Below, piece by piece: positions 1,530-25,311 of a stretch of 64,000 bases of DNA (positions within the stretch are counted from its first letter, which is position 1; the number at the start of each line of letters is the position of its first letter). The translations under genes and the position numbers were made by a program. The stretch covers positions 3,043,001 through 3,107,000 of the forward strand of contig NZ_CP126080.1 in the NCBI RefSeq assembly GCF_030122805.1. Direction: 5' to 3'. A model generated the notes under the pieces. That model had not been told where the DNA came from and did no database searches. It saw only the letters and a list, made by a program, of their open reading frames with translations. The DNA is from Mesobacillus sp. AQ2 (GTDB taxonomy: Bacteria; Bacillota; Bacilli; Bacillales; Cytobacillaceae).

Positions 1530-1545
1530 TGTGACTTAAATCACT
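1530..1545 (+). promoter_or_regulatory. Crp/Fnr-type site upstream of the ba3 oxidase
   Basis: TGTGACTTAAATCACT matches TGTGA-N6-TCACA at 9 of 10 defined positions. A weak -10-like TAACAT (1567-1572) is centred 32 bp downstream of the palindrome centre, the same geometry as at the other sites in this window. This suggests class II activation of the oxidase operon by one of the two Crp/Fnr paralogues. Confidence 0.6.
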
Positions 1546-1619
1546 GTATTTACGCGTTTTCACCATTAACATAGTAAATATGTCAGGTATGAACAATTTG
1601 TGAACTGTCCGAAACCATA

Positions 1620-1647
1620 TTTACGTTTCCAAATTGTTTTGTATGAT
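1620..1647 (+). promoter_or_regulatory. Possible SigA promoter of the ba3 oxidase operon
   Basis: TTTACG (1620-1625), a 16-base spacer and TATGAT (1642-1647) lie about 60 bases before the first gene. This may be a second, constitutive promoter beside the Crp/Fnr-linked one. Both hexamers deviate from consensus, so the call is tentative. Confidence 0.35.
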
Positions 1648-1705
1648 GAGAATGTACTTATCAATTAATCAATGGACTTATTTTATGTGAAGGGAGTGGA
1701 CCGGG

Positions 1706-1855
1706 ATGGCGCAGCCTGGAATTGGGAAGAAAACACATACAAAGGTGGAAGATCGATCTTCCTTGAAAGGAACACTTGCATCCGTTTTCTTATTAGGATT
1801 CTTTTTGATTGTCACTTGGTTAGGCGTTTATTTCTTATTTGTAGATCGTTTTTAA
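1706..1855 (+). CDS. Cytochrome c oxidase subunit 2A-like small membrane protein (49 aa)
   Basis: A short hydrophilic, lysine-rich N-terminus (about 24 residues) is followed by one transmembrane helix (about residues 25-46) and a short V-D-R-F tail. Size, topology and position directly before subunit II match the small subunit IIa of ba3-type oxidases, which supplies the helix missing from subunit II. AGGGAGTGG ends 6 bases before the ATG. The stop is 27 bases before subunit II, so the three genes form one operon. It is under 60 codons and easily missed in annotation. Confidence 0.75.
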   Translation: MAQPGIGKKTHTKVEDRSSLKGTLASVFLLGFFLIVTWLGVYFLFVDRF

Positions 1856-1882
1856 GAGAGACCAAAAGGGGAGAAAGAAGTT

Positions 1883-2359
1883 ATGCATATTCATAAATTT
1901 GAGAAAATCTGGCTTATCTTCGGGATAACGACATTGATCGTCTTCCTGACTGTCATCGGGGTCAGCGCTTTTTACCTCGGAAACCAGCCTCCAAGCTGTC
2001 TGGCAACAATCAATCCGGAAAAAGTTGACACCACTGCACCATTCAATGAGCCTGGATTGAAAAAGGTTGAAGGAAAAGAGTGGGATTACGAACTTGTATA
2101 CGTTGCATCCGCATTCTCTTACAACCCTGGACAGGTGGAAGTTCCACTGGGAGCAAAAGTAAAAGTCATCGCTACAACTAAAGACGTCATCCATGGTTTC
2201 GAGGTTGCAGGAACCAATATCAATATGATGCTCGAGCCTGGCTTCATCAGTGAATATGTCACTACATTTGACAAGGCTGGCGAATATCTGATCGTTTGTA
2301 ATGAATATTGTGGCGTCGGCCACCACATGATGACGTCTAAAATCGAGGTGGTAGAATAA
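1883..2359 (+). CDS. cbaB: ba3-type cytochrome c oxidase subunit II
   Basis: A 158-residue membrane-anchored cupredoxin with one N-terminal transmembrane helix (about residues 9-32) and a CuA domain. The binuclear CuA ligands are visible: H104 in V-I-H-G-F, C139-x3-C143, H147 and the following Met (C-N-E-Y-C-G-V-G-H-H-M-M). It passes electrons from cytochrome c to subunit I on the outer face of the membrane. A single helix and short length are typical of the ba3 (type B) oxidases. The ribosome site is AAAGGGGAGAAAG. The stop TAA overlaps the ATG of subunit I by one base, implying translational coupling. Confidence 0.9.
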   Translation: MHIHKFEKIWLIFGITTLIVFLTVIGVSAFYLGNQPPSCLATINPEKVDTTAPFNEPGLKKVEGKEWDYELVYVASAFSYNPGQVEVPLGAKVKVIATTKDVIHGFEVAGTNINMMLEPGFISEYVTTFDKAGEYLIVCNEYCGVGHHMMTSKIEVVE

Positions 2360-4014
2360 TGAATACTAATTCAATGAATCCAAAAGTTGACCGCCGTGAC
2401 GGAAAACTGTCCATGGCCCACTTTTATGTCGCTTTCACCGCACTTGCCATCGGCGGGTTAGCAGGCCTTCTGCAGACACTTGTCCGTTCAGGGAAATTCG
2501 AATTGCCTTCATGGACTGGGTATTACCAGATCCTTACGATACATGGAGTCGTACTTGGGCTTGTCTTAACAACATTTTTCATTATGGGATTCCAGCTCGC
2601 TCTTGTAAGCAAAACATCAGGAACCTTCACTGACAAACAGCGCCTGACCGGATGGATCGGTTTCTGGACCATGACCATTGGTACAGTAATGGCTGCCATC
2701 ATGATCCTTACCAACCAGGCTTCTGTCCTGTATACATTTTATGCTCCATTACAGGCACATGCACTCTTTTACCTGGGCCTTACACTCGTGATTGTCGGAA
2801 GCTGGATTGACGGTGCCGCAATCATCATGGCTTACACTTCATGGAGAAAAGCAAACCCTGGAAAGCCTAGTCCGCTGCTGACTTTCATGTCCCTTGTCAA
2901 CACACTTATGTGGATTGTTGCAACAATCGGCGTAGCAGCAACTGTATTGTTCCAACTGCTTCCTTGGTCATTGGGCCTTGTTGATCGCGTTGACGTCCTT
3001 GTCAGCCGTACATTGTTCTGGTACTTCGGTCACCCGCTTGTGTATTTCTGGCTATTGCCTGCCTACATGGCATGGTATGCAATCGTTCCAAAGATCATTG
3101 GCGGAAAGATTTTCTCAGACTCATTGGCAAGGATGTCCTTCATCCTGTTCCTGCTGTTCTCAATCCCGGTAGGTTTCCACCATCAGCTGATGGAACCTGG
3201 AATTGATCCGGCATGGAAGTTCCTTCAGGTAATTTTGACATTCCTAGTTGTCATTCCATCACTAATGACGGCATTTTCATTGTTTGCTACGTTTGAAATG
3301 TTTGGGCGTTCCAAAGGGGCGACTGGCCTATTCGGCTGGGTGAAAAAGCTTCCTTGGGGAGATGCGCGTTTCGCAGTTCCATTCATCGGCATGCTTGCAT
3401 TCATTCCAGCTGGTGCCGGGGGACTTGTCAATGCTTCCCACCAATTGAACCAGGTAGTCCACAATACAATCTGGGTTACTGGACACTTCCATTTGACACT
3501 TGCAACTTCTGTTGTATTGACGTTCTTCGGGATTTCCTATTGGCTGGTCCCTCACCTGACCGGCAGAGTCCTGACAAAAGCAATGAATAAATTAGCGATT
3601 ATCCAGGGTGTTATTTGGGCGATCGGCATGACCTTCATGTCAGGTGCAATGCACGCAGCCGGCCTGCTTGGTGCTCCACGTCGTTCATCTTTCTCAACCT
3701 ACGGCGGTTCAGAGCAAGCTGCAGAATGGATTCCATACCAGATTGCACAGGCGGTTGGCGGAACCATTCTGTTCCTTGGAATCATCCTGATGCTATACAT
3801 TTTCATCAACCTTGCTTTCTTCGCACCAAAAGGTGAAGAAGAATTCCCAGTCGGAGAGGTTGCTGATCAGGCTGAAAAAACTCCAATGGTATTCGAAAAC
3901 TGGAAGTTATGGCTCGGTATCACTGTTCTTTTGATTCTGTTCGCGTACACAATTCCGTTCATCGATATGATTCAAAATGCACCAATTGGGTCGAAGGGAT
4001 ACAAATTCTTCTAA
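2359..4014 (+). CDS. cbaA: ba3-type cytochrome c oxidase subunit I
   Basis: A 551-residue polytopic heme-copper oxidase catalytic subunit. Ligands seen: H62 (low-spin heme b), H225 and Y229 of G-H-P-x2-Y (CuB ligand and cross-linked tyrosine), the H274-H275 CuB pair in G-F-H-H-Q, and H376/H378 in T-G-H-F-H (high-spin and low-spin heme). It reduces oxygen to water while pumping protons and usually has high oxygen affinity, fitting the Crp/Fnr-type site upstream. The cytochrome c donor may be reduced by the QcrABC complex encoded at 53-55 kb (inferred). A strong terminator follows at once. Confidence 0.93.
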   Translation: MNTNSMNPKVDRRDGKLSMAHFYVAFTALAIGGLAGLLQTLVRSGKFELPSWTGYYQILTIHGVVLGLVLTTFFIMGFQLALVSKTSGTFTDKQRLTGWIGFWTMTIGTVMAAIMILTNQASVLYTFYAPLQAHALFYLGLTLVIVGSWIDGAAIIMAYTSWRKANPGKPSPLLTFMSLVNTLMWIVATIGVAATVLFQLLPWSLGLVDRVDVLVSRTLFWYFGHPLVYFWLLPAYMAWYAIVPKIIGGKIFSDSLARMSFILFLLFSIPVGFHHQLMEPGIDPAWKFLQVILTFLVVIPSLMTAFSLFATFEMFGRSKGATGLFGWVKKLPWGDARFAVPFIGMLAFIPAGAGGLVNASHQLNQVVHNTIWVTGHFHLTLATSVVLTFFGISYWLVPHLTGRVLTKAMNKLAIIQGVIWAIGMTFMSGAMHAAGLLGAPRRSSFSTYGGSEQAAEWIPYQIAQAVGGTILFLGIILMLYIFINLAFFAPKGEEEFPVGEVADQAEKTPMVFENWKLWLGITVLLILFAYTIPFIDMIQNAPIGSKGYKFF

Positions 4015-4051
4015 TAATGAATGTGCTCTCTTTTTTAAAAAAAACCAAGCA

Positions 4052-4096
4052 AAACAGGGTATGAAATCTGTCTCGATTTCATACCCTGTTTTTTTA
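4052..4096 (+). terminator. Intrinsic terminator of the ba3 oxidase operon
   Basis: A 15-17 bp stem (AACAGGGTATGAAATC with its complement) and a 6-base loop, followed by seven T. It lies 40 bases after the subunit I stop and immediately before repeat A1. Confidence 0.9.
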
Positions 4097-4099
4097 GTT

Positions 4100-4397
4100 G
4101 GCTCTGTTAACCAAGACTGTTGATTTTCGTTCCAGGCGCTTCGCTTTCCGCTGGAAGAATATGAAAAAGACCAACTGCCGTCTTTTTCATAAGCAATTCT
4201 TCCTTGGGGCTGGCGCTGAGCCTCCTCGTCGCTTTGCTCCTGCGGGGTCTCACCTGACCAGCTGTGCCCGCAGGACATAGATTTGGCTTCCTTGAACCTG
4301 CCCACGCACGAAGGAAATGAGTTAGCATTTTCGAGGAGTCTACGCGCCTTCCACTACAATCAACAGGTGTTAAAACAACATTAGGCTTTAAAGAGCC
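4100..4397. repeat. Dispersed repeat family A, copy 1 (MITE-like)
   Basis: About 298 bp, nearly identical in its core to 27469-27770. The left end reads GGCTCTGTTAA; the right end has degenerated to GGCTTTAAAGAGCC. In copy 2 the right end is TTAACAGAGCC, the inverse complement of the left end here. Short frames inside it are conserved only because the DNA is repeated. There is no transposase. It sits directly behind a terminator. Confidence 0.8.
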
Positions 4398-4480
4398 TTT
4401 TAGTTACAAGGCATAAAAATTATAAACAAAGAGCTAAATTAACTAGTCTGCATCCGGATCATGTTCATTCCAGCTATATA

Positions 4481-4511
4481 AAAAAAACAAAAGGATGCCG
4501 CAGCATCCTAT
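4481..4511 (-). terminator. Intrinsic terminator of asnS
   Basis: On the minus strand AGGATGCTG pairs around CGGCATCCT and is followed by TTTTGTTTTTTT. It lies 25 bases past the asnS stop. Confidence 0.85.
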
Positions 4512-4535
4512 TGTTCATTATTTACATGGATTTAA

Positions 4536-5927
4536 TTAAAAATCTGCATTCCCTGGTGTACGAGGGAATGGAATGACATCACGGATGTTCTTCATCCCGG
4601 TTAAATACATGACAAGTCGTTCGAACCCAATTCCATAGCCGGAATGCTTGGTGCTGCCGTATTTTCTAAGCTCGAGATACCACCAGTAATCTTCTTCGGC
4701 CATACCAAGTTCTTTAATCCGTTCTGCAAGGACATCTTCTCTTTCTTCACGCTGGCTTCCGCCGATTAACTCGCCTATGCCGGGAACCAAAAGGTCGGTC
4801 GCAGCAACAGTCTTGCCATCCTCATTCGCTCTCATATAAAATGCCTTGATGTCTTTCGGATAGTCAGTTACGAAGACAGGGCGCTTATAAATTTCCTCGC
4901 TAAGATAACGTTCATGTTCTGTTTGCAAATCAGTACCCCATTCTACAGGGTATTCAAATTGCTTACCAGAGTTCTTTAATAATTCAACAGCTTCGCTATA
5001 AGTAACCCTTCCGAAATCAGAATTTAATGCATTCTGCAATCTTTCAACAAGTGTTTTATCGATAAAGCTGTTGAAGAAGGCCATTTCTTCTGGTGCATGT
5101 TCAAAAACGTAATCAATGACATACTTAATCATTTCTTCTCCAAGGTCCATGATATCCGGTAATTCCGCAAAGGCAACTTCCGGCTCGACCATCCAGAATT
5201 CTGCAGCATGTCGTGCAGTATTCGAATTTTCTGCCCTGAATGTCGGGCCAAAGGTATACACATTACGGAAAGCAAGAGCAAAGCTTTCGGCATTCAATTG
5301 ACCGCTCACGGTTAAGTTGGTTTCTTTGCCGAAGAAATCAGCACTTTCATCCACGTTACCGTCTTCTGTTTTTGGCAGCTTGTTCAAGTCCATTGATGTC
5401 ACGCGGAACATTTCCCCTGCCCCTTCAGTATCGCTTCCAGTAATGATTGGTGTATGTACATAAACAAACCCTTTGTCCTGGAAGAATTTATGAAGAGCAT
5501 AGGATGCAACAGATCTTACTCTGAAAACGGCTGAGAAGGCATTGGCTCTCGGACGCAAGTGAGCGATTGTCCTTAAGTATTCCAGCGTATGGCGCTTTTT
5601 TTGTATAGGAAAATCTGTATCCGATAAACCTTCGACGACAATTTTTGTCGCTTTAATTTCAAAAGGCTGTTTCATTTCTGGAGTTGGAACAAATTCACCT
5701 TCCACTAGAACAGAAGAGCTGATAGGCAACTTTGTTATTTCTTTGAAGTTATCAAGCGTATCCTCAAAAACAATTTGTACACTCTTAAAGAATGTACCAT
5801 CATTTAACTCCATGAAGCCGATCGTTTTGGAATCGCGAAGAGTGCGGATCCATCCTGTTAATTGAACAGTTTTGTCTTTATAACTATCTTGATTTCTGTA
5901 TAGATCTTTTACTACAGTCTTGATCAT
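4536..5927 (-). CDS. asnS: Asparaginyl-tRNA synthetase
   Basis: A 463-residue class IIb aminoacyl-tRNA synthetase that charges tRNA-Asn with asparagine. The N-terminal OB-fold anticodon-binding domain (V-Q-L-T-G-W-I-R, residues about 15-100) precedes the class II core. Motif 2 (F-R-A-E-N-S) and C-terminal motif 3 (G-I-G-F-E-R) are visible. I used the ATG at 5927 rather than an upstream in-frame codon inside the leader, because AAGGAGG lies 7 bases before it and homologues begin M-I-K-T. A T-box leader at 5959-6180 controls expression. In B. subtilis asnS lies next to aspB and dnaD; here it has moved away from them. Confidence 0.95.
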
Positions 5928-5958
5928 AATAAGCCTCCTTATGGTAACTTTTTGCATT

Positions 5959-6180
5959 AAAAAAAGCCTTCTATCCCCCAAAAAAGGGACGAAAGGCTGA
6001 ACTTCCGCGGTACCACCCAAATTGTCATAAAATGACCAACTTCATAATTACTTTTCCCAGTCTATAACGTGCTGGCCACGTCTAAGCCTACTCATGATAT
6101 CCCTTTCGGTTAGAACTCAAAGGTGTTCTTCATTTATGCATCATCACCAGGCTTCCACCATCCCCGGCTCGCTATTGAGT
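5959..6180 (-). promoter_or_regulatory. T-box riboswitch leader of asnS
   Basis: On the minus strand the canonical T-box TGGTACCGCGGAAGT occupies 6001-6015, followed by the terminator (5959-5999: GCCTTTCGTCCC, loop, complementary arm, T-run). The upstream stem I region includes G-A-A-G-A-A-C-A-C-C, where AAC is a plausible specifier for asparagine. Uncharged tRNA-Asn would bind and favour antitermination. The downstream gene, asnS, agrees with the specifier. Confidence 0.93.
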
Positions 6181-6306
6181 ATAGCAAAAACTACTTTCCT
6201 TTTCATCGATTTAAAATATGCAGTTTATAAAAGGATTTTTACTGTAATAATTTATCACATAATATCATCCTTTGTCTAGTTGGCCCCTGCTATATAACTA
6301 TTTTGA

Positions 6307-7212
6307 TCAAACAGTGAAGTGCTTTTTTTGCCTCCTGATTGGAATAGAGATATTGATAGCAATGACTGACATGATAATCAACGCGGATCCGAGCAGCTGA
6401 ATACCGCCCAGCCTGTCGCCATACACCAGCAATCCCAGCATGGTGGCAATGACAGGTTCCAATGTTGCTACAACAGCAGCAGTACTGCTTTCTGTTCGTT
6501 CAAGGCCCCAGGAGTATGCAAAATAAGCAACCACGGTCGGGAAAATCCCTAACCCTATCGCATAAAGCCACACATCCCCGGTGAACAGGACAGCAGCTTT
6601 ACTGGCTATACCGGTTGTCGGAACCAGTGCAGCCGAGGCCACAAGGAAGGTGTACAAAGTGACTGTAAATGGATGGTACCGCCTTAATGCCACCTTCCCA
6701 AAAATGCTGTAAAGAGCATAACCGAACCCTGCCCCAAGGCCGATCAGGATACTGGAGACAGAAAAAGACGTTCCTCCCTGCCCGGTGATGCCTGCAGCAA
6801 GTGTACAGCCAATGACTGTCATGACAATCGCCAACAGTTTCTTTCTGTTAATGCTTTCTTTCAGGAAAAGAAATGACAAAACCGCCACAAAAGCAGGAGA
6901 TGTGTACAATAAAGCCACTGCGATCGGAATATTCATCAGATTGATCGCCGTAAAATAAGACCAGTTAAAAAACACAATGCTTAAAATTCCTGTACCTACA
7001 AAAAGATACAAATCCTTTAACCTTATTTTTAAATGACTTCGGTAAAAAGCAATTCCGACTATTATTAAAACAATGGCTGCGGTCAAAACCCGGATGGCCA
7101 CAATCTCCATGGCACTAAAACCGGCAGTGTTCAGGCCTTTTACAAAGAAACCAATCAAGCCCCACATAGCCGCTGCAAATGCGATCATAAAATAAGGCAT
7201 TTTCCCTTTCAT
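6307..7212 (-). CDS. EamA/DMT family transporter
   Basis: A 301-residue membrane protein with about ten transmembrane helices in two EamA repeats (residues about 5-135 and 150-290), the usual drug/metabolite transporter layout. The start at 7212 is chosen for the GGTGA just upstream; an in-frame ATG 12 bases later is possible, and upstream codons lie inside an inverted repeat. Substrates of this family are metabolites or amino acids, and the sequence does not reveal which. It follows the M32 carboxypeptidase by about 95 bases. A perfect 12-bp inverted repeat lies 15 bases before the start. Confidence 0.85.
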   Translation of the reverse strand: MKGKMPYFMIAFAAAMWGLIGFFVKGLNTAGFSAMEIVAIRVLTAAIVLIIVGIAFYRSHLKIRLKDLYLFVGTGILSIVFFNWSYFTAINLMNIPIAVALLYTSPAFVAVLSFLFLKESINRKKLLAIVMTVIGCTLAAGITGQGGTSFSVSSILIGLGAGFGYALYSIFGKVALRRYHPFTVTLYTFLVASAALVPTTGIASKAAVLFTGDVWLYAIGLGIFPTVVAYFAYSWGLERTESSTAAVVATLEPVIATMLGLLVYGDRLGGIQLLGSALIIMSVIAINISIPIRRQKKHFTV

Positions 7213-7227
7213 ACGTTCACCACACAG

Positions 7228-7256
7228 ATAAGATGACAGAAAGACTGTCATCTTAT
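7228..7256. repeat. Perfect 12-bp inverted repeat before the EamA gene
   Basis: ATAAGATGACAG, a 5-base loop, then CTGTCATCTTAT. It lies between the M32 peptidase and EamA genes and ends 15 bases before the EamA start. No T-run follows on the minus strand, so an operator or an mRNA hairpin limiting translation is more likely than a terminator. Confidence 0.6.
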
Positions 7257-7307
7257 ATTCTAAATGCTGTTCAAACAAATTATTTGGTTTAGTTAAAATC
7301 CTGGATA

Positions 7308-9252: not shown

Positions 9253-9295
9253 ATTATAGAACCGACCCGTACCCCAGGTAGTGAGCGCCGTCACA
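9253..9295 (-). promoter_or_regulatory. Crp/Fnr-type site and -10 element of the DUF2249 gene
   Basis: AGTGAGCGCCGTCACA at 9280-9295 matches TGTGA-N6-TCACA at 9 of 10 positions. A perfect TATAAT (minus strand, 9258-9253) is centred 32 bp downstream, so the activator would bind near -41.5. No -35 hexamer is needed in this arrangement. Confidence 0.75.
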
Positions 9296-9408
9296 GTTCT
9301 ACTATGACATCCCTCATTCATGACTTGCCTTAATTCAGTCGAAAAATCGACTTTTAAAAAAGGAACTCCGGGCAAGAACAAGAATTATTTTAATAGGGAG
9401 GGATCTAT

Positions 9409-9543
9409 TTGAAAGAATTGGTTGGAAACTGTGATAAATGCGGAAAAGAAATTTATTGCATGGACGGCTTTTTGAATGGAATACATGAACATGGTAAATT
9501 GCTTTGTTTTGAATGCGAAAAAAACACCAAAGAAGAGTCGTAG
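9409..9543 (+). CDS. Small zinc-ribbon-like protein (44 aa)
   Basis: TTG start with GGGAGGG 7 bases upstream; the frame reads M-K-E-L-V-G-N-C-D-K-C-G and later L-C-F-E-C-E-K-N. Two C-x2-C pairs separated by 24 residues (C8/C11 and C33/C36) suggest one zinc site; an extra Cys and two His lie between them. It is transcribed away from the DUF2249 gene and towards norB. I do not recognise a named family. Ribosome site, cysteine pattern and following terminator support it being real. Confidence 0.6.
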   Translation: MKELVGNCDKCGKEIYCMDGFLNGIHEHGKLLCFECEKNTKEES

Positions 9544-9611: not shown

Positions 9612-9616
9612 AGTAA

Positions 9617-12018: not shown

Positions 12019-12106
12019 CTTCCCTGCATCCCCTTCCTAATTTGTTTTACATACCAAGCTTAAAGCGAAATGAAAATGGAGTTTGTGAACTACCTCATGC
12101 AGCAGG

Positions 12107-12122
12107 TGTGATATTTCCCACA
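12107..12122. promoter_or_regulatory. Crp/Fnr-type site in the norB/regulator divergent region
   Basis: TGTGATATTTCCCACA matches TGTGA-N6-TCACA at 9 of 10 positions. It lies 89 bases before norB. At the 32-bp position seen elsewhere the minus strand reads only CAAACT, so the norB -10 is weak or differently placed. Confidence 0.6.
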
Positions 12123-12155: not shown

Positions 12156-12198
12156 TATGATTCAGGTCACTTAGCACTCACTTTGCAGTTGATAAAAT
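12156..12198 (+). promoter_or_regulatory. Crp/Fnr-type half-conserved site and -10 before the regulator gene
   Basis: TATGATTCAGGTCACT (12156-12171) matches TGTGA-N6-TCACA at 8 of 10 positions, and TAAAAT (12193-12198) is centred 32 bp downstream. Together they suggest autoregulation of the Crp/Fnr gene starting at 12239. Confidence 0.45.
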
Positions 12199-12928: not shown

Positions 12929-12952
12929 CCACTTGCAAAAAATCTCTTGTTA

Positions 12953-12995
12953 AGTGATTCACATCACGGAAGTTTATATTGAAAATGATTATCAT
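12953..12995 (+). promoter_or_regulatory. Crp/Fnr-type site and -10 of the DUF2249/membrane cassette
   Basis: AGTGATTCACATCACG (12953-12968) has perfect inner arms GTGA-N6-TCAC. TATCAT (12990-12995) is centred 32 bp downstream, again placing the activator near -41.5. It starts 25 bases after the stop of regulator 1, so the cassette probably has its own promoter. Confidence 0.7.
12980..12994 (+). promoter_or_regulatory. Fur-like box overlapping the cassette -10
   Basis: TGAAAATGATTATCA matches the B. subtilis Fur 7-1-7 consensus TGATAATNATTATCA at 13 of 14 defined positions. It covers the TATCAT -10 element, so a bound Fur would block RNA polymerase. A PerR or Zur box fits less well. Confidence 0.6.
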
Positions 12996-13495: not shown

Positions 13496-14740
13496 ATGTT
13501 TCAGCAAAGCAGAGGCAACGAGACAAATATTAAGCTTCCTTTTTCGTTCATTTTTTTCAGCATGCTTGCATTGATATCTTCACAGCTGCTGATCCTGCTG
13601 AACGGCGACATGCTGATAACAGGCACATTCCGTTTGCCAGCCATTTGGTCTGCTGCCCATTTATTTGTCCTTGGATGGGCATTGATGGTTGCAATGGGCG
13701 CTATGTACCAGCTTGTGCCTGTCGCTTTCCTGACGCCTATCTGGAGCGAAAAATTCGGATTCTGGCAATTTACCGTTACCGCCCTGGGAATCCTGACATT
13801 TGCGACAGTACTTTATCTTCGTCCACAGGATGCCCTTATTCCCGGAATCATGACCTTGACAGGAATCCTGATGTTCCTTGTTCAAATGTTCATGACCCTG
13901 AGAAGCCAGGCAAAACCCAATATACTCACATTGTTTGTCGGCAGCGCTTTATTTTCACTCCTGCTGACCATCACATTGGGAATCACACTGGTAATCAGCA
14001 TGAAAACCGGCTATGCATCAGAATATTACCAGGCCATTTTCAAGACACACATTCTATTGGGCACTGTCGGATGGTTCTCACTGCTGATTTTTGGATTCTC
14101 TTATAAAATGGTACCAATGTTCTCACTTGCCCATGGATTTACCATGAAGCCGGCAGCCTATGTATTCACCTTTTACCTGGCCGGAATCATCATGATGGTT
14201 GCTTCATTCTTTACAGGCAGTCATTTACTGGAAATCCTTGGAACGCTGTTGTTGCTTTCTGGATTTTTAGCTTTCACCTGGCATGTTAAAAAAATCATCG
14301 ATAAACGCGTGAAAAGGAAGCTCGATCGCCCATTCATGTTCGCTTTATTTGCGATTGGCTGCGGGGCAGCAATCCACCTGGCCGCTTTTATGGCCAGTTC
14401 AGTAAATTTGCTGTTAAAAACCGCCGGTCCCATTCTATTATTGTATTTAATCGCCTGGATTGCATTCAGCATCATCGGATACTTGTACAAAATCGTGCCA
14501 TTTCTCTGGTGGACTCATAAATACAGCAAAGAAATCGGCAAAAAGCAAGTACCTGCCTTAAAAGATATGATGGATGAAAAGCTGGCACTTCCACTTTTCA
14601 CTTTGTTCACGGGTGGAACAGTGCTGTTAATCATCTCATTCTTTGTCCAGCTGATGCCAATTTTCTATATTGCCCAAAGCTTGATTCTAATGGCAGGTAT
14701 TTTGTTCAGCTATATCATAGCCAAAGTGTTAACGATTTAA
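13496..14740 (+). CDS. Polytopic membrane protein, NnrS/heme-copper-oxidase-I-like, with three internal repeats
   Basis: A 414-residue protein with about 11-12 transmembrane helices. Three segments share a pattern of a His followed some 16-36 residues later by G-x2-Y-[QK]-[LMI]-V-P: H55 to Y71-Q-L-V-P, H185 to Y203-K-M-V-P, and H294 to Y331-K-I-V-P; a W-W-T-H341 follows the last. Regularly placed membrane histidines recall heme or metal ligands in NnrS and subunit I proteins. It lacks the H-H pair and H-x3-[YE] of true oxidases or NORs. Two DUF2249 genes and a MIP18 gene flank it in one operon. I cannot name the family with certainty; a heme-binding role in NO or copper handling is inferred. 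Confidence 0.75.
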   Translation: MFQQSRGNETNIKLPFSFIFFSMLALISSQLLILLNGDMLITGTFRLPAIWSAAHLFVLGWALMVAMGAMYQLVPVAFLTPIWSEKFGFWQFTVTALGILTFATVLYLRPQDALIPGIMTLTGILMFLVQMFMTLRSQAKPNILTLFVGSALFSLLLTITLGITLVISMKTGYASEYYQAIFKTHILLGTVGWFSLLIFGFSYKMVPMFSLAHGFTMKPAAYVFTFYLAGIIMMVASFFTGSHLLEILGTLLLLSGFLAFTWHVKKIIDKRVKRKLDRPFMFALFAIGCGAAIHLAAFMASSVNLLLKTAGPILLLYLIAWIAFSIIGYLYKIVPFLWWTHKYSKEIGKKQVPALKDMMDEKLALPLFTLFTGGTVLLIISFFVQLMPIFYIAQSLILMAGILFSYIIAKVLTI

Positions 14741-14753: not shown

Positions 14754-15059
14754 ATGACAGATTTACAAAATAAAATCAGGGAAAACTTAAAGACCGTCTA
14801 TGATCCTGAATTAAACATCAATGTTGTGGATTTGGGGCTGATTTATGATATTGACGTTCCGGAACCACGCACTGCAAGAATTCTGATGACCTTGACGACT
14901 CCAGGCTGTCCTTTGCATGACAGCATTGCCAGCGGAATTAAGTATTGTGTTCAGGGAATGGAGGAAATTGACCACGCTGATGTCCAATTGACATGGGAGC
15001 CTGCCTGGACACCTGACCGGATGACAGAGGATGGAAAAAGACTGTTGCAGGGATTTTAA
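14754..15059 (+). CDS. MIP18 family (DUF59) metal-sulfur cluster assembly protein
   Basis: A 101-residue protein with the MIP18/PaaD/SufT signature: V-Y-D-P-E-L-x-I-N-V-V-D-L-G-L-I-Y near residues 15-31 and the T-T-P-G-C-P-L motif with its conserved Cys near residue 52. Members help assemble or repair Fe-S clusters. As last gene of the DUF2249/membrane cassette it may mature or repair a cluster damaged by NO (inferred). AGGAGG lies 8 bases before the ATG; the gap from the membrane protein gene is 13 bases. A terminator follows. Confidence 0.9.
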   Translation: MTDLQNKIRENLKTVYDPELNINVVDLGLIYDIDVPEPRTARILMTLTTPGCPLHDSIASGIKYCVQGMEEIDHADVQLTWEPAWTPDRMTEDGKRLLQGF

Positions 15060-18659: not shown

Positions 18660-18664
18660 ATCTT

Positions 18665-18692: not shown

Positions 18693-18700
18693 TGCATTTA

Positions 18701-19136: not shown

Positions 19137-19232
19137 TTAAAGGAATGTGTAAAAGTTGTCCTTCAGTCCGCTGAATAGTACAGCAATAAGAGTGATGACA
19201 ACAAAATAGAGAACTAAAACCGCTTTATACAT
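19137..19232 (-). CDS. Putative 31-residue single-span membrane peptide
   Basis: Frame M-Y-K-A-V-L-V-L-Y-F-V-V-I-T-L-I-A-V-L-F-S-G-L-K-D-N: a positively charged start, one transmembrane helix of about 18 residues and a short polar tail. GGGGCTGG upstream is a modest ribosome site. There is no named homologue I recognise. It occupies an otherwise empty 380-base gap between cotD and mrfB. Confidence 0.4.
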   Translation of the reverse strand: MYKAVLVLYFVVITLIAVLFSGLKDNFYTFL

Positions 19233-19393
19233 CTTACCAGCCCCGTAAAATTATATTGATTTTAACACCATACAATTTTACATTTTACAATGTCGGAACC
19301 ATACATACAACAGGATAATACAGGTTTTGCGCATTTAAATGTTAAAATTTTGTTACAATTGAAAAAAACCTGGCGAAACCTGTTGAAACAGGG

Positions 19394-20701
19394 TCAATTT
19401 GACGAATTTTGCGCTTGCCCGGGAAATGCTTTCCGGGAAATTCTCTGGATCCTTTTTTCGAGCTCTTCCTTAAAAATCATGTCTTTTTTTGTTGCCAGCT
19501 TTCCCTGGATAATATGCTCTTCAGCAAGCCGGCAATACCTCAAAGCCATTTCGAAATTTCGCTCCCGATGTTCAAAATGCTTGGCCAGTTCGATGCATGC
19601 TTCTCTCCTCTGCTTATTGCTGCCCTTCTCCGCACTTTCTTTCCATAACGGAACGGCATTCTGCCATTCCTTATGCTTTTTATGTTCGAAAGCCAGTGCG
19701 TGCTTTGCAGAAACTGCCTGATCATTGCCCTCATCCAATAGTCCAGTGAAAGCCTGCTTTGCTTTGTCAGTATCGCCAAGGTAGGAAAACCAGCGTCCAA
19801 CTTCGTAGGTTTCCTGTGCTGTCTGTGATTGGTCACGGCCGAGTATCTGGAAGGTTAGATGTGTATAAAGGGTCAGCAGTGACAGAATATCTGTTTCATT
19901 GTGCCTGATGACACCGAGCAATCCCTCGGGGTCCTTCCTCTCGAGGAAGTCAAAATAAATCATCGGTGCCAGGAAGCCTGGGATATCGTCTTTCCGCTCA
20001 AGACCCAATACCTCCTGTTCGACGATGCTAAGTTTCATTCGTTCGATTTTATGCTTCCACATTCTTCTGGCGGCATGATACAAGTCAAAATGTCCATACG
20101 ATGGCAGTTTTGGGACATGGTCACGGACAAGGGTGTGCCTGGTTTTGACTTGCGGCCAGTCGAAAGCCTTCCCATTGTAGGTAACCAGGGTCGTATAGTC
20201 GGCATTTTCCAAAAAACTCTGATATAGCGCTACTTCTGCGCCAGGGCTTGGCAGGATATGCTGTTTAAGTTTTACACAATCACCGGAAACACTCGCATGG
20301 CCTAAAAGGAATATCGTATTCCCTGCTCCCCCGCCAAGTCCCGTTGTTTCAGTATCAAAAAACACTAAATCGCCTGCCCTATGGCCCGAGGCGGAAAGAG
20401 GGTGATTGGTCTGTTCCTGATTCCACAGGGAGACAGCCTCAAGCAGATCACTGAATTGATAGTGGCCATGTTTGTGGTCAAGCGGATAAACAACCTCCCT
20501 GACCAGACAGTATTCGCCATCAAAATAGAAGGGGGTAACATGTTCCTTCTCCCAGATATCGAGAAACGGTATGTCAGGTGTCGATTCTGCATTTACCGGT
20601 TCTGGCTCAGGGATGTTGTTACTGGCTGCTGACGGTCCTGGCTTATCGGCCCCGCTCTTGATATGCGGCTTCAGCCTGTTCAATTTGTTCTTTAAACTCA
20701 T
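19394..20701 (-). CDS. mrfB: Exonuclease MrfB (YprB), mitomycin C repair
   Basis: A 435-residue protein with a disordered Pro-rich N-terminus (about 1-45), a DEDDh-type RNase H-fold exonuclease domain (V-F-F-D-T-E-T-T-G-L near residue 113 holds the first Asp and Glu; later H-N-E-T-D) and C-terminal TPR-like helices. In B. subtilis MrfA helicase and MrfB exonuclease repair mitomycin C lesions independently of UvrABC. The gene ends 14 bases after mrfA, as expected for one operon. It also carries the conserved H-x3-D near the exonuclease end. Confidence 0.92.
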   Translation of the reverse strand: MSLKNKLNRLKPHIKSGADKPGPSAASNNIPEPEPVNAESTPDIPFLDIWEKEHVTPFYFDGEYCLVREVVYPLDHKHGHYQFSDLLEAVSLWNQEQTNHPLSASGHRAGDLVFFDTETTGLGGGAGNTIFLLGHASVSGDCVKLKQHILPSPGAEVALYQSFLENADYTTLVTYNGKAFDWPQVKTRHTLVRDHVPKLPSYGHFDLYHAARRMWKHKIERMKLSIVEQEVLGLERKDDIPGFLAPMIYFDFLERKDPEGLLGVIRHNETDILSLLTLYTHLTFQILGRDQSQTAQETYEVGRWFSYLGDTDKAKQAFTGLLDEGNDQAVSAKHALAFEHKKHKEWQNAVPLWKESAEKGSNKQRREACIELAKHFEHRERNFEMALRYCRLAEEHIIQGKLATKKDMIFKEELEKRIQRISRKAFPGQAQNSSN

Positions 20702-20715
20702 TTTCCCCCTCCTTC

Positions 20716-22992
20716 CTATACTGCGGCTTCAAGAAATAGATTCAACAATTTCACAACATCTTTTTTTGAGTGGATCGATGTTGTATCCGTTCCGATACAT
20801 GATGGACACCCATCGGAACACTGGCAGTTAAGGACCATTTGCTTCGTCTGCTTTAAAATCTCCTCAATACCGGAATAGATTTTTTCACTCAGGCCAATTC
20901 CACCAGGATAACGATCATAAAAGAAAATCGTCGGCTTTTCATTATGGGCGGCCTTCACCTGCGGGACGACATGGACATCAGATGGGTCGCACATAACGAA
21001 TAATGGTGCGATATGTTTCAAAGCCTGAGATGTACCGATCAACCCTTCCTCGAGCCGGTCATCAGCAAACTCGGAAAGTTCTTTATTAAGGGAGATCCAT
21101 GCTGAGCTCGTGTGCAGTTCTTCCTCCGGCAGATAAATTGGACCTGATCCTATATTTTCATGAGTTTCAAACCTGATTTTCTTGAAAATTGTGGCCATCG
21201 CCCTGACACTCACATCTCCATAACCGATTTCTGTATCTTTATTGCCCCTATGTTTGTCTTCCTCCAAAACACTGAGCTGGACGGCGAGATTGGCATCGGT
21301 AAAGTAATCGACATCAACTTCACGTACAAACGCCTTTTTTTCTTCCCAATCAAGCTTTTCCACCTGAAATTGAATGCCCTGGTGGAGATAGATCGCTTCT
21401 TCATGTAACAATGTCATTGCGGAGAAGGTATCCATCTCGCCAATCACCCTGACATTTGCAACATCTGATTGGTCGATGATCACGACATTCTCCTGCGAAG
21501 CAGAGCGGAGGCTGATATTATGGGCCGGGAAGGCATCATTCATCCAGAACCATTTGTCGCCATTCTGATGAAGGATACGCTCCTCCGTTAAGTATTCCAG
21601 AATTTCTTCAATTTCCGCTGCCCCGAAAGTGTCTCCCTTTTTAAAAGGCAATTCATAGGATGCACACTTGATGTGATCAATCAGGATAATCAAGTTGTCG
21701 GGATTGATTCTGGCTGTTTCCGGACTGCGGTTGAAAAAGTAATCGGGATTTTGGATGACATACTGATCCAGCGGGCTTGAGCTTGCCACCATGATGACTA
21801 CAGACTCTCCATGCCGTCTGCCAGCCCGACCTGCCTGCTGCCATGCACTTGCGATCGTACCCGGGTAACCATTCATGATACATACCTGAAGCTGTCCGAT
21901 ATCGACACCCAATTCAAGAGCATTGGTGCTGACAACACCGTAAATTTCACCGGAACGCAAACCTTTTTCAATATCACGCCTTTCGGTCGGGAGGTAGCCG
22001 CCCCTGTATCCCCTGATGGCTTTTGGACCGAGCTTATGCTTGACCAGCTCCTGAAGATAGGTAAGCAGGATTTCCACCCTCACCCTGCTTCTCGCAAAGA
22101 CGATGGTCTGGATCCTGTTCCTCAGGAATTCTCCTGCAAGCTTTCTTGTTTCAAGTGTCGCACTCCTCCTGACATTCAGCGGAATATTGACAACAGGAGG
22201 GTTATAGAATAAAAAGTGCTTCTTTCCTGAAGGCGCACCATTATTGTCGATCAAGACCATCTCTTTTTCGGTCAAGCCTTCAGCCAGTTCCAACGGATTG
22301 GCAATGGTCGCGGAAGTACAGATAAAAACAGGATCACTACCGTAATATTTGCAGATCCTTTTCAGCCTCCTGATGACATTTGCCACATGGCTGCCAAAAA
22401 CTCCTCTGTAAATATGCAGTTCATCGATGACCACATACTTAAGATTCTCAAAAAGCGAGACCCATTTCGTATGATGCGGCAGGATTGCTGAATGGAGCAT
22501 ATCCGGGTTCGTAATGACGATGTGTCCTGCCCTTCTCACCTTCTGACGGATATTGGCTGGTGTGTCGCCATCATATGTATAGCTGTTAATCGAAAGTTCC
22601 GCCTCCTGGATCAATTCATTGATTTCACTCTTTTGGTCCTGGGCAAGAGCTTTTGTCGGGAACATGTATAGAGCCCTTGCATTCGGATCATCGATGATTG
22701 ACTGCAGGACGGGCAGATTATAGCACAGCGTTTTCCCCGAGGCTGTCGGTGTGACAGCAACGATGCTTTGTCCTCTCATGATTTGTTCGTAAGATGATTT
22801 TTGGTGTGTATATAATCGGGATATCCCGCGCCTTTGGAGTGCATTTTCCAGGATCCCGCTTAAATTTTCCGGCATGTCTTCCGTCCTGGCTTCTTTCTCC
22901 TCAATCGTGTGCCAGTGGACAATATTTTTCTTTACCGATTCACTAACCTTTAAATCTTGCAAAATCTCTTGCATGTTTTTCCTGAATTTCAT
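20716..22992 (-). CDS. mrfA: DEAD/DEAH helicase MrfA (YprA), mitomycin C repair
   Basis: A 758-residue superfamily 2 helicase. Walker A is T-P-T-A-S-G-K-T near residue 80; the DEAH-like box is V-I-D-E-L-H; motif VI is Q-A-G-R-A-G-R. The C-terminal MZB/DUF1998 domain carries the zinc tetrad C-x-C-x3-C-x2-C (C-Q-C-S-D-G-C-P-S-C). It is a 3'-5' helicase that works with MrfB in excision of mitomycin adducts. The ATG at 22992 has GAGGTGA 5 bases upstream; the longer frame starts inside that site. Confidence 0.94.
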   Translation of the reverse strand: MKFRKNMQEILQDLKVSESVKKNIVHWHTIEEKEARTEDMPENLSGILENALQRRGISRLYTHQKSSYEQIMRGQSIVAVTPTASGKTLCYNLPVLQSIIDDPNARALYMFPTKALAQDQKSEINELIQEAELSINSYTYDGDTPANIRQKVRRAGHIVITNPDMLHSAILPHHTKWVSLFENLKYVVIDELHIYRGVFGSHVANVIRRLKRICKYYGSDPVFICTSATIANPLELAEGLTEKEMVLIDNNGAPSGKKHFLFYNPPVVNIPLNVRRSATLETRKLAGEFLRNRIQTIVFARSRVRVEILLTYLQELVKHKLGPKAIRGYRGGYLPTERRDIEKGLRSGEIYGVVSTNALELGVDIGQLQVCIMNGYPGTIASAWQQAGRAGRRHGESVVIMVASSSPLDQYVIQNPDYFFNRSPETARINPDNLIILIDHIKCASYELPFKKGDTFGAAEIEEILEYLTEERILHQNGDKWFWMNDAFPAHNISLRSASQENVVIIDQSDVANVRVIGEMDTFSAMTLLHEEAIYLHQGIQFQVEKLDWEEKKAFVREVDVDYFTDANLAVQLSVLEEDKHRGNKDTEIGYGDVSVRAMATIFKKIRFETHENIGSGPIYLPEEELHTSSAWISLNKELSEFADDRLEEGLIGTSQALKHIAPLFVMCDPSDVHVVPQVKAAHNEKPTIFFYDRYPGGIGLSEKIYSGIEEILKQTKQMVLNCQCSDGCPSCIGTDTTSIHSKKDVVKLLNLFLEAAV

Positions 22993-23183
22993 CACGTTCA
23001 CCTCATTAACTCTATTTTAGCGAATAAACGTTCGTTACAAAAGAAAAATTATTGTGACCAGACTGCTAGTTTTTGGCATTCACATTTCTATTCACTGTCT
23101 GGCTGCGAAATCCCTTATGTTATTTATGGTCCCGTTTTGCTAAAATAATAGAATGGACTACAGCTTATATAGAGGTGTTTCTT

Positions 23184-23876
23184 TTGGAAAAGAATGAAAT
23201 AAAAAATGTGCTGGCAAGATTCTCATTGTTCAGGGACCTTGAGGACCATGAATTAGACAAGATCGTCGATATATCCATTTCGCGGCAGTGGAAGAAACAC
23301 AGCCATATCTTCATGCAGGATGACCCGCTGGAAAATGTTTATTTCATCAATGAAGGCAAGGTAAAAGTCTATAAAAGTGATGCCAATGGCCGCGAGCAAA
23401 TCGTCGCTATCCTAAAAAAAGGTGAAATGTTCCCTCATGTAGGCTTTTTCAGGAAAGGCGGTTATCCAGGGTATTCGGAGGTATTGGAGGAAGCAAGCCT
23501 TGTCGTTGTCCCAATTTCACAATTCGAAAAGGTGCTGGTCGATAACCCTCATTTAAGCATCAAGGTATTCAAGGTGCTTGGCGAGAAAATCGTTGACCTC
23601 CAGGAAAGACTTGAAGCCCAAATCCTTAATAACACCTACGAACAAATCATTAAGCTTTTGATCAGGATGGGTGAGCTTCACGGAGACAAGCAGGAAAATG
23701 GCACTGTTTTGTTAAAGACGGATTTCACGAACAAGGACCTGGCCAATATGATTGGCACCACCAGGGAAACGGTCAGCAGGACGCTGACCAAAATGAAAAA
23801 AGACAATCTAATTTCCACTGATTCAGCCGGGAATATGATCTTGGATCCTGATGTATTGCTGGACGAGCTAGTCTAA
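23184..23876 (+). CDS. Crp/Fnr family transcriptional regulator 2
   Basis: A 230-residue paralogue of the regulator at 12239: effector beta-roll (about 12-118), dimer helix and winged helix with T-T-R-E-T-V-S-R (R194, E195, R199). The TTG at 23184 is chosen because GAGGTG lies 9 bases upstream and the N-terminus then aligns with the paralogue; the longer frame would add 37 unrelated residues. It has no cysteine at all, so it cannot hold an Fe-S cluster. It shares the segment E-M-F-P-H-x-G-F-F-R-K-G with the paralogue. It converges on hcp, whose promoter carries a perfect site. No site is seen before this gene. Confidence 0.9.
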   Translation: MEKNEIKNVLARFSLFRDLEDHELDKIVDISISRQWKKHSHIFMQDDPLENVYFINEGKVKVYKSDANGREQIVAILKKGEMFPHVGFFRKGGYPGYSEVLEEASLVVVPISQFEKVLVDNPHLSIKVFKVLGEKIVDLQERLEAQILNNTYEQIIKLLIRMGELHGDKQENGTVLLKTDFTNKDLANMIGTTRETVSRTLTKMKKDNLISTDSAGNMILDPDVLLDELV

Positions 23877-23893
23877 TAAGTTCACCTGCATGA

Positions 23894-23923
23894 AAACGCC
23901 CGAGGCAGTTAGCCCCGGGCGTT
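23894..23923. terminator. Terminator between regulator 2 and hcp
   Basis: AACGCCCG and CGGGCGTT arms around a 13-base spacer. On the minus strand TTTTCATG follows, so it best serves hcp, but it may end both genes. Confidence 0.65.
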
Positions 23924-23930
23924 AAATCTG

Positions 23931-25232
23931 TTATTCTGTCTTGCTTAGACCCATCATTGTTTCCAAGTCTTCCTGGGCAGATGTGATCAGCTTCAGGTTG
24001 AATGTTTCCTGCAGGACCTCCATCACGCCATTGGAAATGAATTCAGGCGGCTTTGGCCCGATGCGGATGTCCTGGATTCCAAGGCTGAAAAGTCCAAGCA
24101 GGATTGCGACCGCTTTTTGCTCGAACCAGGAAAGGACAATACTCACCGGTAATTCGTTTACATCACATTCAAAAGCATCCGCAAGTGCCTTGGCAATTTT
24201 AACTGTAGATACGGAGTTATTGCACTGTCCAAGATCCAGATATCGAGGGATGTTCGTTCCAGGCACTACCCCATAATCGACATCATTGAAACGGAACTTG
24301 CCGCAAGAAGTTGTCAGGATGACCGCTTCTGGAGGAAGGGATGTTGCAAGCTCGCGGTAGTATTCTCCGCCTTTTCCCGGTGCATCACAACCGGCAATCA
24401 CGAAGAAACGCTTGATTTTTCCTGATTTGACTGCTTCTATGACTTCAGGAGCCAGACCAATCACTGTTTCGTGATGGAAGCCAGTCACCAATGTTTCTTC
24501 CGATTCCATGTTAGCCTCTGGAAGCTCCAATGCTCTTTCGATCAGCATGGAGAAATCTTCATTTTCAATTTTCCTTACATTTTCAAGACCGGCAACTTCG
24601 TATGTAAACATACGATCTGCATAGGAACCCTTGATTGGCATCACGCAATTAGTCGTTGCCAGGATTGCCCCAGGGAATTTTTCAAACAGACGGCGCTGGT
24701 CGAACCAAGCCTTCCCGATATTACCCTTAAGATGAGGATATTTTTTCAAGGCTGGATAACCGTGAGCAGGGAGCATCTCAGAGTGCGTGTAAATATTGAT
24801 ACCTTTGCCTTCTGTTTGCTTCAGCAATTCTTCAAGCGCGAATAGATTGTGCCCCGTAACAACGATCGCTTTGCCTTCTATCTTGTTCTGGCTTACCTTT
24901 ACAGGCTGAGGGATGCCAAGGCGGCTAGTGTGCGCCTCATCAAGCATTTCCATCACGCGTACAGCTGATTGGCCCACCTTCATCGCCATATCAATATGTT
25001 CCTGGACATTAAAGTTTGAATTAGTCAACGTCATATATAATGCTTCGTGGGTCGTTGCATCTACGAACGGATCCGTGAATCCAAGCTGATTCGCATGGGT
25101 TCTATAGGCTGCAATGCCTTTCAGTGCAAAAATGATCGTATCCTGAAGACTTGCGATTGTTTCATCTTTTCCGCATACACCAACAACTTTACATCCTCCT
25201 GTTGGCGTTTGTTCACATTGGTAACAAAACAT
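23931..25232 (-). CDS. hcp: Hybrid cluster protein (hydroxylamine/NO reductase)
   Basis: A 433-residue Hcp of the short Gram-positive type. The N-terminal cluster cysteines C3-x2-C6-x7-C14-x5-C20 are visible, as are later hybrid-cluster ligands including G-C-D-A-P-G and T-T-S-C-G-K-F. Hcp reduces NO to N2O at low concentrations and was first described as a hydroxylamine reductase. A perfect Crp/Fnr-type palindrome and a suitably placed -10 lie upstream, tying it to norB. No hcr reductase gene is adjacent. Confidence 0.95.
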   Translation of the reverse strand: MFCYQCEQTPTGGCKVVGVCGKDETIASLQDTIIFALKGIAAYRTHANQLGFTDPFVDATTHEALYMTLTNSNFNVQEHIDMAMKVGQSAVRVMEMLDEAHTSRLGIPQPVKVSQNKIEGKAIVVTGHNLFALEELLKQTEGKGINIYTHSEMLPAHGYPALKKYPHLKGNIGKAWFDQRRLFEKFPGAILATTNCVMPIKGSYADRMFTYEVAGLENVRKIENEDFSMLIERALELPEANMESEETLVTGFHHETVIGLAPEVIEAVKSGKIKRFFVIAGCDAPGKGGEYYRELATSLPPEAVILTTSCGKFRFNDVDYGVVPGTNIPRYLDLGQCNNSVSTVKIAKALADAFECDVNELPVSIVLSWFEQKAVAILLGLFSLGIQDIRIGPKPPEFISNGVMEVLQETFNLKLITSAQEDLETMMGLSKTE

Positions 25233-25268
25233 ATGTGTATTCCCCTTTTCTGCTTTATTTACTGTTTC

Positions 25269-25311
25269 AGCATACAGAGGTTGAAAAATCGGTTATGTGA
25301 CCTAAATCACA
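25269..25311 (-). promoter_or_regulatory. Perfect Crp/Fnr-type site and -10 of hcp
   Basis: TGTGACCTAAATCACA at 25296-25311 matches TGTGA-N6-TCACA at all 10 positions. On the minus strand TATGCT (25274-25269) is centred 32 bp downstream, giving an activator position near -41.5. Confidence 0.85.

Follow-up and report, generated by a model that had tools for sequence, protein, structure and literature searches.

A 64-kb stretch of the 4.80-Mb genome of Mesobacillus sp. AQ2 (G000:C1:3043001-3107000; hereafter, the window) carries Crp/Fnr-like sites at a fixed distance from -10-like hexamers before the genes for a ba3-type oxidase, a nitric oxide (NO) reductase (norB), a hybrid-cluster protein (hcp), DUF2249 proteins, and the Crp/Fnr regulator Crp1, whose paralogue Crp2 is encoded beside hcp. 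From sequence comparison, this set can be recognized as a real class II Crp/Fnr regulon, conserved and of a well-known type, with its sites placed before genes of NO and low-oxygen respiration. Such a regulon, linking ba3, norB, hcp, and DUF2249 genes, had been proposed in a first-pass annotation of the same DNA, and the proposal is supported by the spacing and by conservation across genera. In the explanation that we favor and consider fairly probable, this NO/low-oxygen regulon would be of class II, with sites at -41.5; Crp1 and Crp2 would be the main local activators, sharing sites in part with Fe-S Fnr-type paralogues, and would respond to an NO-type signal, possibly via a heme at His85.

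Site geometry in the window

The first-pass annotation named six palindromes close to TGTGA-N6-TCACA, five of them with a -10-like hexamer centered exactly 32 bp away; all six palindromes are present in the sequence, and all five hexamers can be read off it. A site at -41.5 and a -10 element centered at -9.5 have 32 bp between their centers, which is the class II arrangement. This reading also extends to norB through a degenerate proximal site, absent from the earlier list, and its hexamer TAAGCT, so that the geometry is found at 6 of 6 window promoters. In the following list, each hexamer is centered 32 bp from the center of the site of the same gene (for norB, from 12084..12099).

1530..1545, + strand: Crp/Fnr-like site before the ba3 oxidase genes, TGTGACTTAAATCACT
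1567..1572, + strand: -10-like TAACAT, ba3
9280..9295, - strand: Crp/Fnr-like site, DUF2249a, TGTGACGGCGCTCACT
9253..9258, - strand: -10-like TATAAT, DUF2249a
9303..9318, - strand: degenerate second site, 23 bp upstream of the DUF2249a site, AATGAGGGATGTCATA
12084..12099, - strand: norB-proximal degenerate Crp/Fnr-like site, CATGAGGTAGTTCACA
12057..12062, - strand: -10-like TAAGCT, norB
12107..12122, - strand: norB-distal Crp/Fnr-like site, 23 bp upstream of the proximal one, TGTGGGAAATATCACA
12156..12171, + strand: Crp/Fnr-like site, crp1, TATGATTCAGGTCACT
12193..12198, + strand: -10-like TAAAAT, crp1
12953..12968, + strand: Crp/Fnr-like site, DUF2249b, AGTGATTCACATCACG
12990..12995, + strand: -10-like TATCAT, DUF2249b
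25296..25311, - strand: Crp/Fnr-like site, hcp, perfect palindrome, TGTGATTTAGGTCACA
25269..25274, - strand: -10-like TATGCT, hcp

Through the site 12156..12171, crp1 would be autoregulated. No -10-like hexamer lies 32 bp from the palindrome 12107-12122 on either side (CAAACT towards norB, AAAACT towards crp1), and no site with the 32-bp spacing was found at the Crp2 promoter. The earlier statement that such palindromes lie only upstream of respiratory or NO-related genes holds for the five window sites with at most one mismatch (the fifth, 12948-12963, overlaps 12953); 12156 and 12953 are two of 19 two-mismatch sites in the window.

Spacing and chance

By number, the palindromes give the regulon no support: the window has 5 with at most one mismatch, compared with 2.64 expected (at least 5 were seen in 14 of 100 shuffles), and 24 with at most two, compared with 32.65 expected. 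Palindrome number was therefore dropped as evidence, its count not exceeding that of the shuffles, and, because it is unremarkable, the case for the regulon is carried by placement, spacing, and conservation. Such a count is what would be expected if the sites were chance palindromes in AT-rich intergenic DNA; the genome-wide spacing is not. GTGA-N6-TCAC occurs at 74 places in the whole genome, compared with 41 for the reversed control pattern; the flanks of the first 50 of the 74, picked by palindrome alone and blind to the -10 element, were scanned for TANNNT at center distances of 18-69 in both orientations (100 orientations). TANNNT, the frequency of which is 2.2% of positions in five intergenic regions, was found at distance 32 in 15 of the 100 orientations (4 of these cases are inside the window), whereas the other distances gave a mean of 1.8 and a maximum of 4, with distances 31 and 33 (2 each) excluded from this background. 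Hexamers matching TATAAT in at least 5 of 6 positions numbered 8 at distance 32 and elsewhere had a mean of 1.2 and a maximum of 3. This peak bears out the earlier remark that a constant spacing is hard to get by chance. Searches of the genome with the fixed-spacing pattern returned 28 rows when one mismatch was allowed, compared with 12 when the spacing was shortened by five bases, and 140 rows when two mismatches were allowed, compared with 88 when the pattern was reversed. For the set as a whole, the spacing, the norB-region results, and the conservation across genera described below make the chance explanation vanishingly improbable.

The 14-mer GTGAAATGATTCAC or its reverse complement makes up 9 of the 50 listed GTGA-N6-TCAC places (e.g., C1:2876-2889, 1760549, 1951033, and 2805640). 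None of the 9 has TANNNT at 32, which marks the 14-mer as a distinct signal; it resembles a Rex operator or a repeat.

Conservation of the sites in relatives

Conservation was scored in 80 named loci, the best 80 of 322 found by a pair of peptide patterns, of which one includes FPH. Rows are BLAST matches rather than genomes (81 crp1 rows in the 80 loci, a few of them weak), and a site was accepted at 8 or more matches out of 10 with TANNNT at 32; the best site was chosen by palindrome and -10 hexamer jointly, which favors the spacing. On this scale, site and spacing were found before DUF2249a in 60 of 65 rows, before crp1 in 61 of 81, before ba3 in 46 of 60, and before norB in 15 of 48 (27 at 7/10). 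The ba3 site with its spacing is present in the window genome and in all 9 of the 9 same-genus loci that include the promoter, and the DUF2249b site in most same-genus loci (not in G008). At hcp, a site with TANNNT at 32 was seen in 26 of the 27 parsed loci out of 30 (in the remaining three, the start was missed by the motif used), with constant half-sites and varying inner six bases. The spacing is shifted by one base at hcp in genomes G026 and G032 and at DUF2249a in G015, and no site reaches the cutoff at ba3 in G029 and G024 or at DUF2249b in G008, G024, G029, G032, and G052. Two points detract from this picture: the same-genus footprints are not independent of each other, and the DUF2249b site with spacing was found in 24 of 69 rows and not found in 45.

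The norB-crp1 intergenic region, compared in 49 distinct versions, adds a second fixed distance. A norB-proximal site at a loose cutoff (at least 6/10 with a set half-site) has TANNNT at exactly 32 in 44 of the 49 regions, and a crp1-oriented site has it in 48; a second site of at least 8/10 lies exactly 23 bp from the norB-proximal one in 42 of 44 scorable regions. The distances from the crp1 site to the other sites scatter (49, 51, 53, 50, and 57). The window counterparts are 12084, 12107, and 12156, and because the 23-bp distance is constant whereas those to the crp1 site are not, 12107 is assigned to norB and ruled out as a crp1 site; norB would thus have sites at -41.5 and -64.5. Among 59 distinct DUF2249a promoters, 18 have a degenerate second site (at least 7/10) at exactly 23 bp, against a background of 0.4% per position. 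As a feature of all promoters, the 23-bp tandem was rejected: it occurs in 3 of 46 ba3 promoters, and it does not figure among the frequent offsets at crp1 or DUF2249b.

Immediately 5' of the ba3 site (window 1480-1530) are direct TTCACA repeats (TTTTCACAGATTATTCACAATT), kept in most same-genus loci, and matches of at least 7/10 at offsets 32 and 43 recur in this region in 31 of 46 ba3 promoters. These repeats resemble ResD boxes.

In the proposed mechanism, a dimer would bind TGTGA-N6-TCACA-like sites, mostly with a pyrimidine after TGTGA, centered at about -41.5 of each promoter, replace the -35 element, and activate by class II contacts; at norB, a second dimer would sit upstream of the first at a distance of exactly 23 bp. 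Because the site overlies the -35 region, binding without activation would block the promoter, and some of the sites might then be repressor operators. The spacing, mostly fixed to one base pair across unrelated promoters, is needed for class II activation and not for repression, which makes operators of this kind very unlikely.

Sites elsewhere in the genome

Outside the window lie 25 of the 28 site-plus-spacing rows (no more than one mismatch over the site and the -10 hexamer combined). Those with an exact TANNNT at 32 precede genes for Hmp, RIC (ScdA/YtfE), hemerythrin, and a NarK with a C-terminal PAS domain, as well as YwiC-like, heme-related radical SAM, CoxB-like, weakly QmoC-like, and cytochrome-c-like proteins; those with one -10 mismatch precede genes for a second NarK-like protein, cytochrome bd subunit I, FeoB, and a DoxX protein. 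A pyruvate-ferredoxin-oxidoreductase-type protein is encoded downstream of one site. Several of these family matches fall under curated cutoffs. The downstream genes of 13 of the 25 sites were judged respiratory, NO-related, or anaerobic. The other 12, with an unfitting gene, a distant gene, or no family, count on the opposite side; they include genes for a hexapeptide-repeat protein, a DsrE protein, a protein without any family, a SpoIVB-like protein, a short open reading frame (ORF), and a methyl-accepting protein whose called open frame runs across the site, and for some sites the downstream gene is 444 to 1323 bp away. The first-pass annotation had named an equal frequency at random genes as grounds for giving up the idea. 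That comparison, run in part, leaves the idea standing, and the division of 13 to 12, having no matched gene-function control, is not a significance test.

At L110:4915-6414, a NarK-type transporter that ends in a PAS domain is encoded near an Fnr-type gene.

Genes and predicted domains of the window

The genes downstream of the window sites and their neighbors are as follows.

1883..2359, + strand: ba3-type oxidase subunit II (COX2), PF00116
2359..4014, + strand: ba3-type oxidase subunit I (COX1), heme-copper oxidase, PF00115
8981..9214, - strand: DUF2249 protein a, PF10006
9655..12018, - strand: NO reductase norB/qNor, putatively quinol type, PF22085 and PF00115
12239..12928, + strand: Crp1, Crp/Fnr regulator without Fe-S cysteines, with the FPHAGFF motif (His85) and the R-E-x3-R helix
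13034..13273, + strand: DUF2249 protein b, PF10006
13272..13490 (open frame from 13203), + strand: DUF2249 protein c, PF10006, also TusA-like PF01206
13496..14740, + strand: polytopic membrane protein, weakly similar to heme-copper oxidase subunit I, under the Pfam cutoff
14754..15059, + strand: SufT/MIP18-like Fe-S assembly protein, PF01883
23190..23876 (open frame from 23073), + strand: Crp2, Crp1 paralogue (~55% identity)
23931..25232, - strand: short hybrid-cluster protein (hcp), NF003658 and TIGR01703

The label "ba3" of the heme-copper oxidase 1883-4014 is taken over from the first-pass annotation, and the subtype is putative; norB is assigned to the quinol type because its domain is fused. 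The oxidase-like membrane protein 13496..14740 is a conserved neighbor across the compared loci. Divergent from DUF2249a, and having its upstream region in common with it, is a short ORF with two CxxC pairs (zinc-ribbon-like; window 9410-9541, + strand).

The nearest named relatives of the Crp1 protein include those on contigs of Mesobacillus subterraneus and M. selenatarsenatis. A contig titled Cytobacillus oceanisediminis 2691 strain DE0166 encodes a Crp1 with 100% identity to that of the window, and close relatives are found on contigs titled Chryseobacterium and Pseudomonas (L122, L123, and L137), so that some of the record labels are probably wrong.

Which regulators may act at the sites

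In the genome, matches that span almost the full length of the Crp helix-turn-helix family were found for seven proteins, and matches to PF00027 and PF13545 above the cutoffs place the local regulators in the Crp/Fnr superfamily. The R-E-x3-R motif of CRP-type DNA recognition is present in Crp1, Crp2, and 80 of 80 Crp1 relatives; the R-E of the CRP recognition helix corresponds to R180/E181 (PMC1274295). It is also kept in four paralogues (C1:1431887, 1441976, 2876463, and 3320317) that carry a C-terminal CX2CX4C like that of Bacillus subtilis Fnr, and is lacking in the seventh protein (2190083). The first-pass argument from R-E-x3-R to TGTGA recognition thus fits all four Fnr-type paralogues as well as Crp1 and Crp2, and a motif common to all six cannot by itself name the regulator.

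Gene neighborhoods and co-occurrence make it likely that the regulon belongs to the two local paralogues, with Crp1 (autoregulated, beside norB and DUF2249) and Crp2 (beside hcp) as the presumed main activators at the local promoters. Crp1 is found in conserved neighborhoods with norB and DUF2249 genes and Crp2 in conserved neighborhoods with hcp; by coordinates, Crp2 is convergent beside hcp in 11 of the 15 genera with short hcp. Short hcp occurs in 15 of 24 genera with Crp1/2 and in 0 of 18 without (p=1.4e-5), a comparison that counts G032, G040, and G053, in which the hcp frames are interrupted, and omits the long form of hcp (G028, G036, G050, G055, and a second copy in G053). DUF2249 occurs in 17 of 24 and 2 of 18, respectively (p=1.4e-4); in one of these two exceptions, G051, a protein with 38% identity to Crp1 is encoded ~400 bp away. 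Of the 18 genomes that lack Crp1/2, 1 was found to have NO reductase, partly with a stop (the genome-wide count covers these 18 only). In the G032 lineage, where hcp is split in two pieces (L084:4128-5012), and in that of G022, where Crp2 has an internal TGA (G022:C4:637026-637700), the hcp/Crp2 pair is possibly decaying.

Several observations weigh against the assignment to Crp1 and Crp2. Both p values ignore relatedness between the genomes. Sites with the 32-bp spacing are kept in genomes without Crp1/2, at hmp in G031 and G051 and at ba3 in G041, G044, and G056, so that other Crp/Fnr proteins can serve them. The presence of sites did not significantly follow that of Crp1/2 for hmp with spacing (11/19 with and 2/11 without, p=0.06), for hmp with any site of at least 8/10 (12/19 and 5/11, p=0.45), or for ba3 (15/24 and 3/6 loci, p=0.66), and this route to the regulator was dropped. 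A small tree, in which Crp1 is not a clean group, carries no claim. The first-pass suggestion that one or both local paralogues drive the response is thus backed in part by neighborhoods and co-occurrence and qualified by the shared helix and by the sites kept without Crp1/2.

These same facts could be read as an O2-sensing [4Fe-4S] Fnr regulon, activated by one or more of the four Fnr-type paralogues, with Crp1 and Crp2 doing something else. R-E-x3-R is kept in all four, sites with the same spacing precede narK genes in 16 of 28 narK-type loci (no such site was found in the other 12), and four of the genomes that have hmp or ba3 sites without Crp1/2 (G031, G041, G044, and G056) encode an Fnr-type protein. 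However, an Fnr-like protein (E <= 1e-20, many just 34-39% identical) is present in 9 of the 18 genomes without Crp1/2, and of these nine, none has short hcp, two have DUF2249 (G051 and G057), and one has part of an NO reductase (G057). A different specificity is hinted at by position 6 of the site, which is a pyrimidine (T or C) in 124 of 124 distinct DUF2249a, DUF2249b, crp1, ba3, hcp, and hmp sites and in 6 of the 15 distinct narK sites, which stem from the 16 loci just mentioned. The hcp list in this count includes one site with the -10 hexamer shifted by one base (G026) and omits two variants that also have a pyrimidine there. Two genomes without Crp1/2 are represented in the hmp list, and norB sites were left out; the norB-proximal site has G at position 6 and breaks the rule, which counts against the explanation that we prefer. 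On balance, we regard a regulon run by the Fnr-type proteins alone as improbable.

An arrangement that overlaps with our preferred explanation is a cascade in which Fnr-type proteins would set low-oxygen expression and Crp1 and Crp2 would contribute an NO signal through these -41.5 sites as well. Six R-E-x3-R paralogues are encoded in one genome, the site sequences overlap, and in Dinoroseobacter shibae a single site serves both FnrL and DnrD, a regulator of the heme-type Dnr group (PMC5398030). The binding of two proteins at one site is a supposition in this genome, and we give the cascade slightly less than even weight. In the explanation that we prefer, with Crp1 and Crp2 as the main activators, such sharing with the Fe-S Fnr-type paralogues would be partial.

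What Crp1 and Crp2 may sense

Neither paralogue has the Fe-S ligands CX2CX4C: Crp1 has one cysteine and Crp2, from 23190 on, none; the motif was found in 0 of 80 Crp1 relatives. The cyclic AMP (cAMP) contacts of CRP are Glu72, Arg82, and Ser83 (Escherichia coli numbering); in an alignment with Mycobacterium tuberculosis CRP, these columns hold His85, Tyr94, and Pro95 of Crp1. In alignment A1, whose 18 members were hand-picked from whole-protein matches and their neighborhoods, the stretch G-E/D-M-F-P-H-x-G-F-F, which takes the place of cAMP-pocket residues, does not vary between its M and its final F in 18 of 18 members; the count of "PH" in 78 of 80 Crp1 relatives is biased, since one search pattern contains FPH. 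Crp1 His85 aligns with the heme ligand His77 of CooA both in MAFFT and in hhalign with two CooA fragments, from Rhodospirillum rubrum and Carboxydothermus hydrogenoformans. A structure model of Crp1 (mean predicted local distance difference test score, 83.8; predicted template modeling score, 0.55) matches Crp/Fnr structures, including DNR; the match is family-wide, tied with many rows, and leaves the ligand undecided, and the high-ranking matches to K+ channel and kinase domains reflect only the shared cyclic nucleotide-binding (cNMP) domain.

We infer, giving it less weight than the regulon itself, that the signal would be NO or a related species, sensed by neither an Fe-S- nor a cAMP-based mechanism and possibly through heme bound at His85, the invariant histidine of FPHxGFF. 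The comparison with CooA also yields points against a heme. The hhalign probability is a weak 13.8% for the R. rubrum protein (93.7% for that of C. hydrogenoformans), and an eight-residue loop that CooA lacks is kept in the aligned Crp1 and Crp2. In place of the Pro2 of CooA, the three A1 rows with a full Crp1 N terminus start with MHI, MNR, and MNI, other start codons being possible. The targets of CooA are carbon monoxide genes, not NO genes. Heme binding by CooA requires the absence of the CRP 72-82 region (PMC12937710), and the Porphyromonas gingivalis regulator HcpR, which senses NO through heme, uses Met68 as the heme ligand (PMC12750200). Because of the retained loop and the Met68 of HcpR, heme is a lead and not a result.

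Relation to known systems

The nearest precedent in geometry is the B. subtilis Fnr regulon, which, as Reents reportedly described in 2006, has a TGTGA-N6-TCACA consensus and sites at -41.5; class II activation and low-oxygen genes are further points of likeness. The [4Fe-4S] cluster of B. subtilis Fnr is C-terminal (PMC8139620); Crp1 and Crp2 lack cysteines of this kind, and the Mesobacillus set adds norB, hcp, DUF2249, ba3, hmp, and RIC; in B. subtilis, hmp is assigned to NsrR (PMC1274295). In HcpR regulons, likewise, a Crp/Fnr protein without Fe-S cysteines controls hcp, with the motif wTGTGAnnnnnnTCACAw in Desulfovibrio (Rodionov 2005, PMC1274295). HcpR belongs to other lineages, and its heme ligand in P. 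gingivalis is Met68. For DNR and NnrR of denitrifying proteobacteria, the fold match with Crp1 is family-wide only, and their sites are of another type than TGTGA-N6-TCACA. In Bacillus licheniformis, a second Crp/Fnr gene, fnr2, lies beside qnorB and dnrN (PMC4719734), a similar gene position; the passages on it give no sites or regulon. DUF2249 genes are induced in denitrification in Haloferax mediterranei (PMC11218638), and DrpA/DrpB of Thermus are DUF2249 genes tied to denitrification (PMC6282519); these genes, too, lie beside nor or nar genes and have a promoter motif in common, with other regulators and another motif (CGAAYATDKTYG in the haloarchaeon). No description of a Crp1/Crp2 regulon was found in the parts of the literature that were searched.

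A bolder proposal, which we consider doubtful, is that Crp1 and Crp2 represent an undescribed Bacillaceae class of Crp/Fnr NO sensors, in which the His of FPHxGFF would hold heme in the old cAMP pocket, at a CooA-like position and with the effector loop kept. The paralogues would be specialized, Crp1 for norB and DUF2249 and Crp2 for hcp, and the pair would drive an NO regulon in relatives of B. subtilis, a species whose own NO response is ascribed to NsrR and ResDE. Two dimers, one at -41.5 and one at -64.5, would act at norB.

Implications

With the regulon as described, DUF2249 proteins, the SufT-like protein, and the oxidase-like membrane protein, the roles of which are vague or unknown, become predicted parts of the NO response in widespread soil bacilli, and two regulators and their exact promoters are named as testable candidates. 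Should NO sensing by Crp1 and Crp2 be heme based, Bacillaceae would have a route that runs in parallel with those of NsrR and ResDE.

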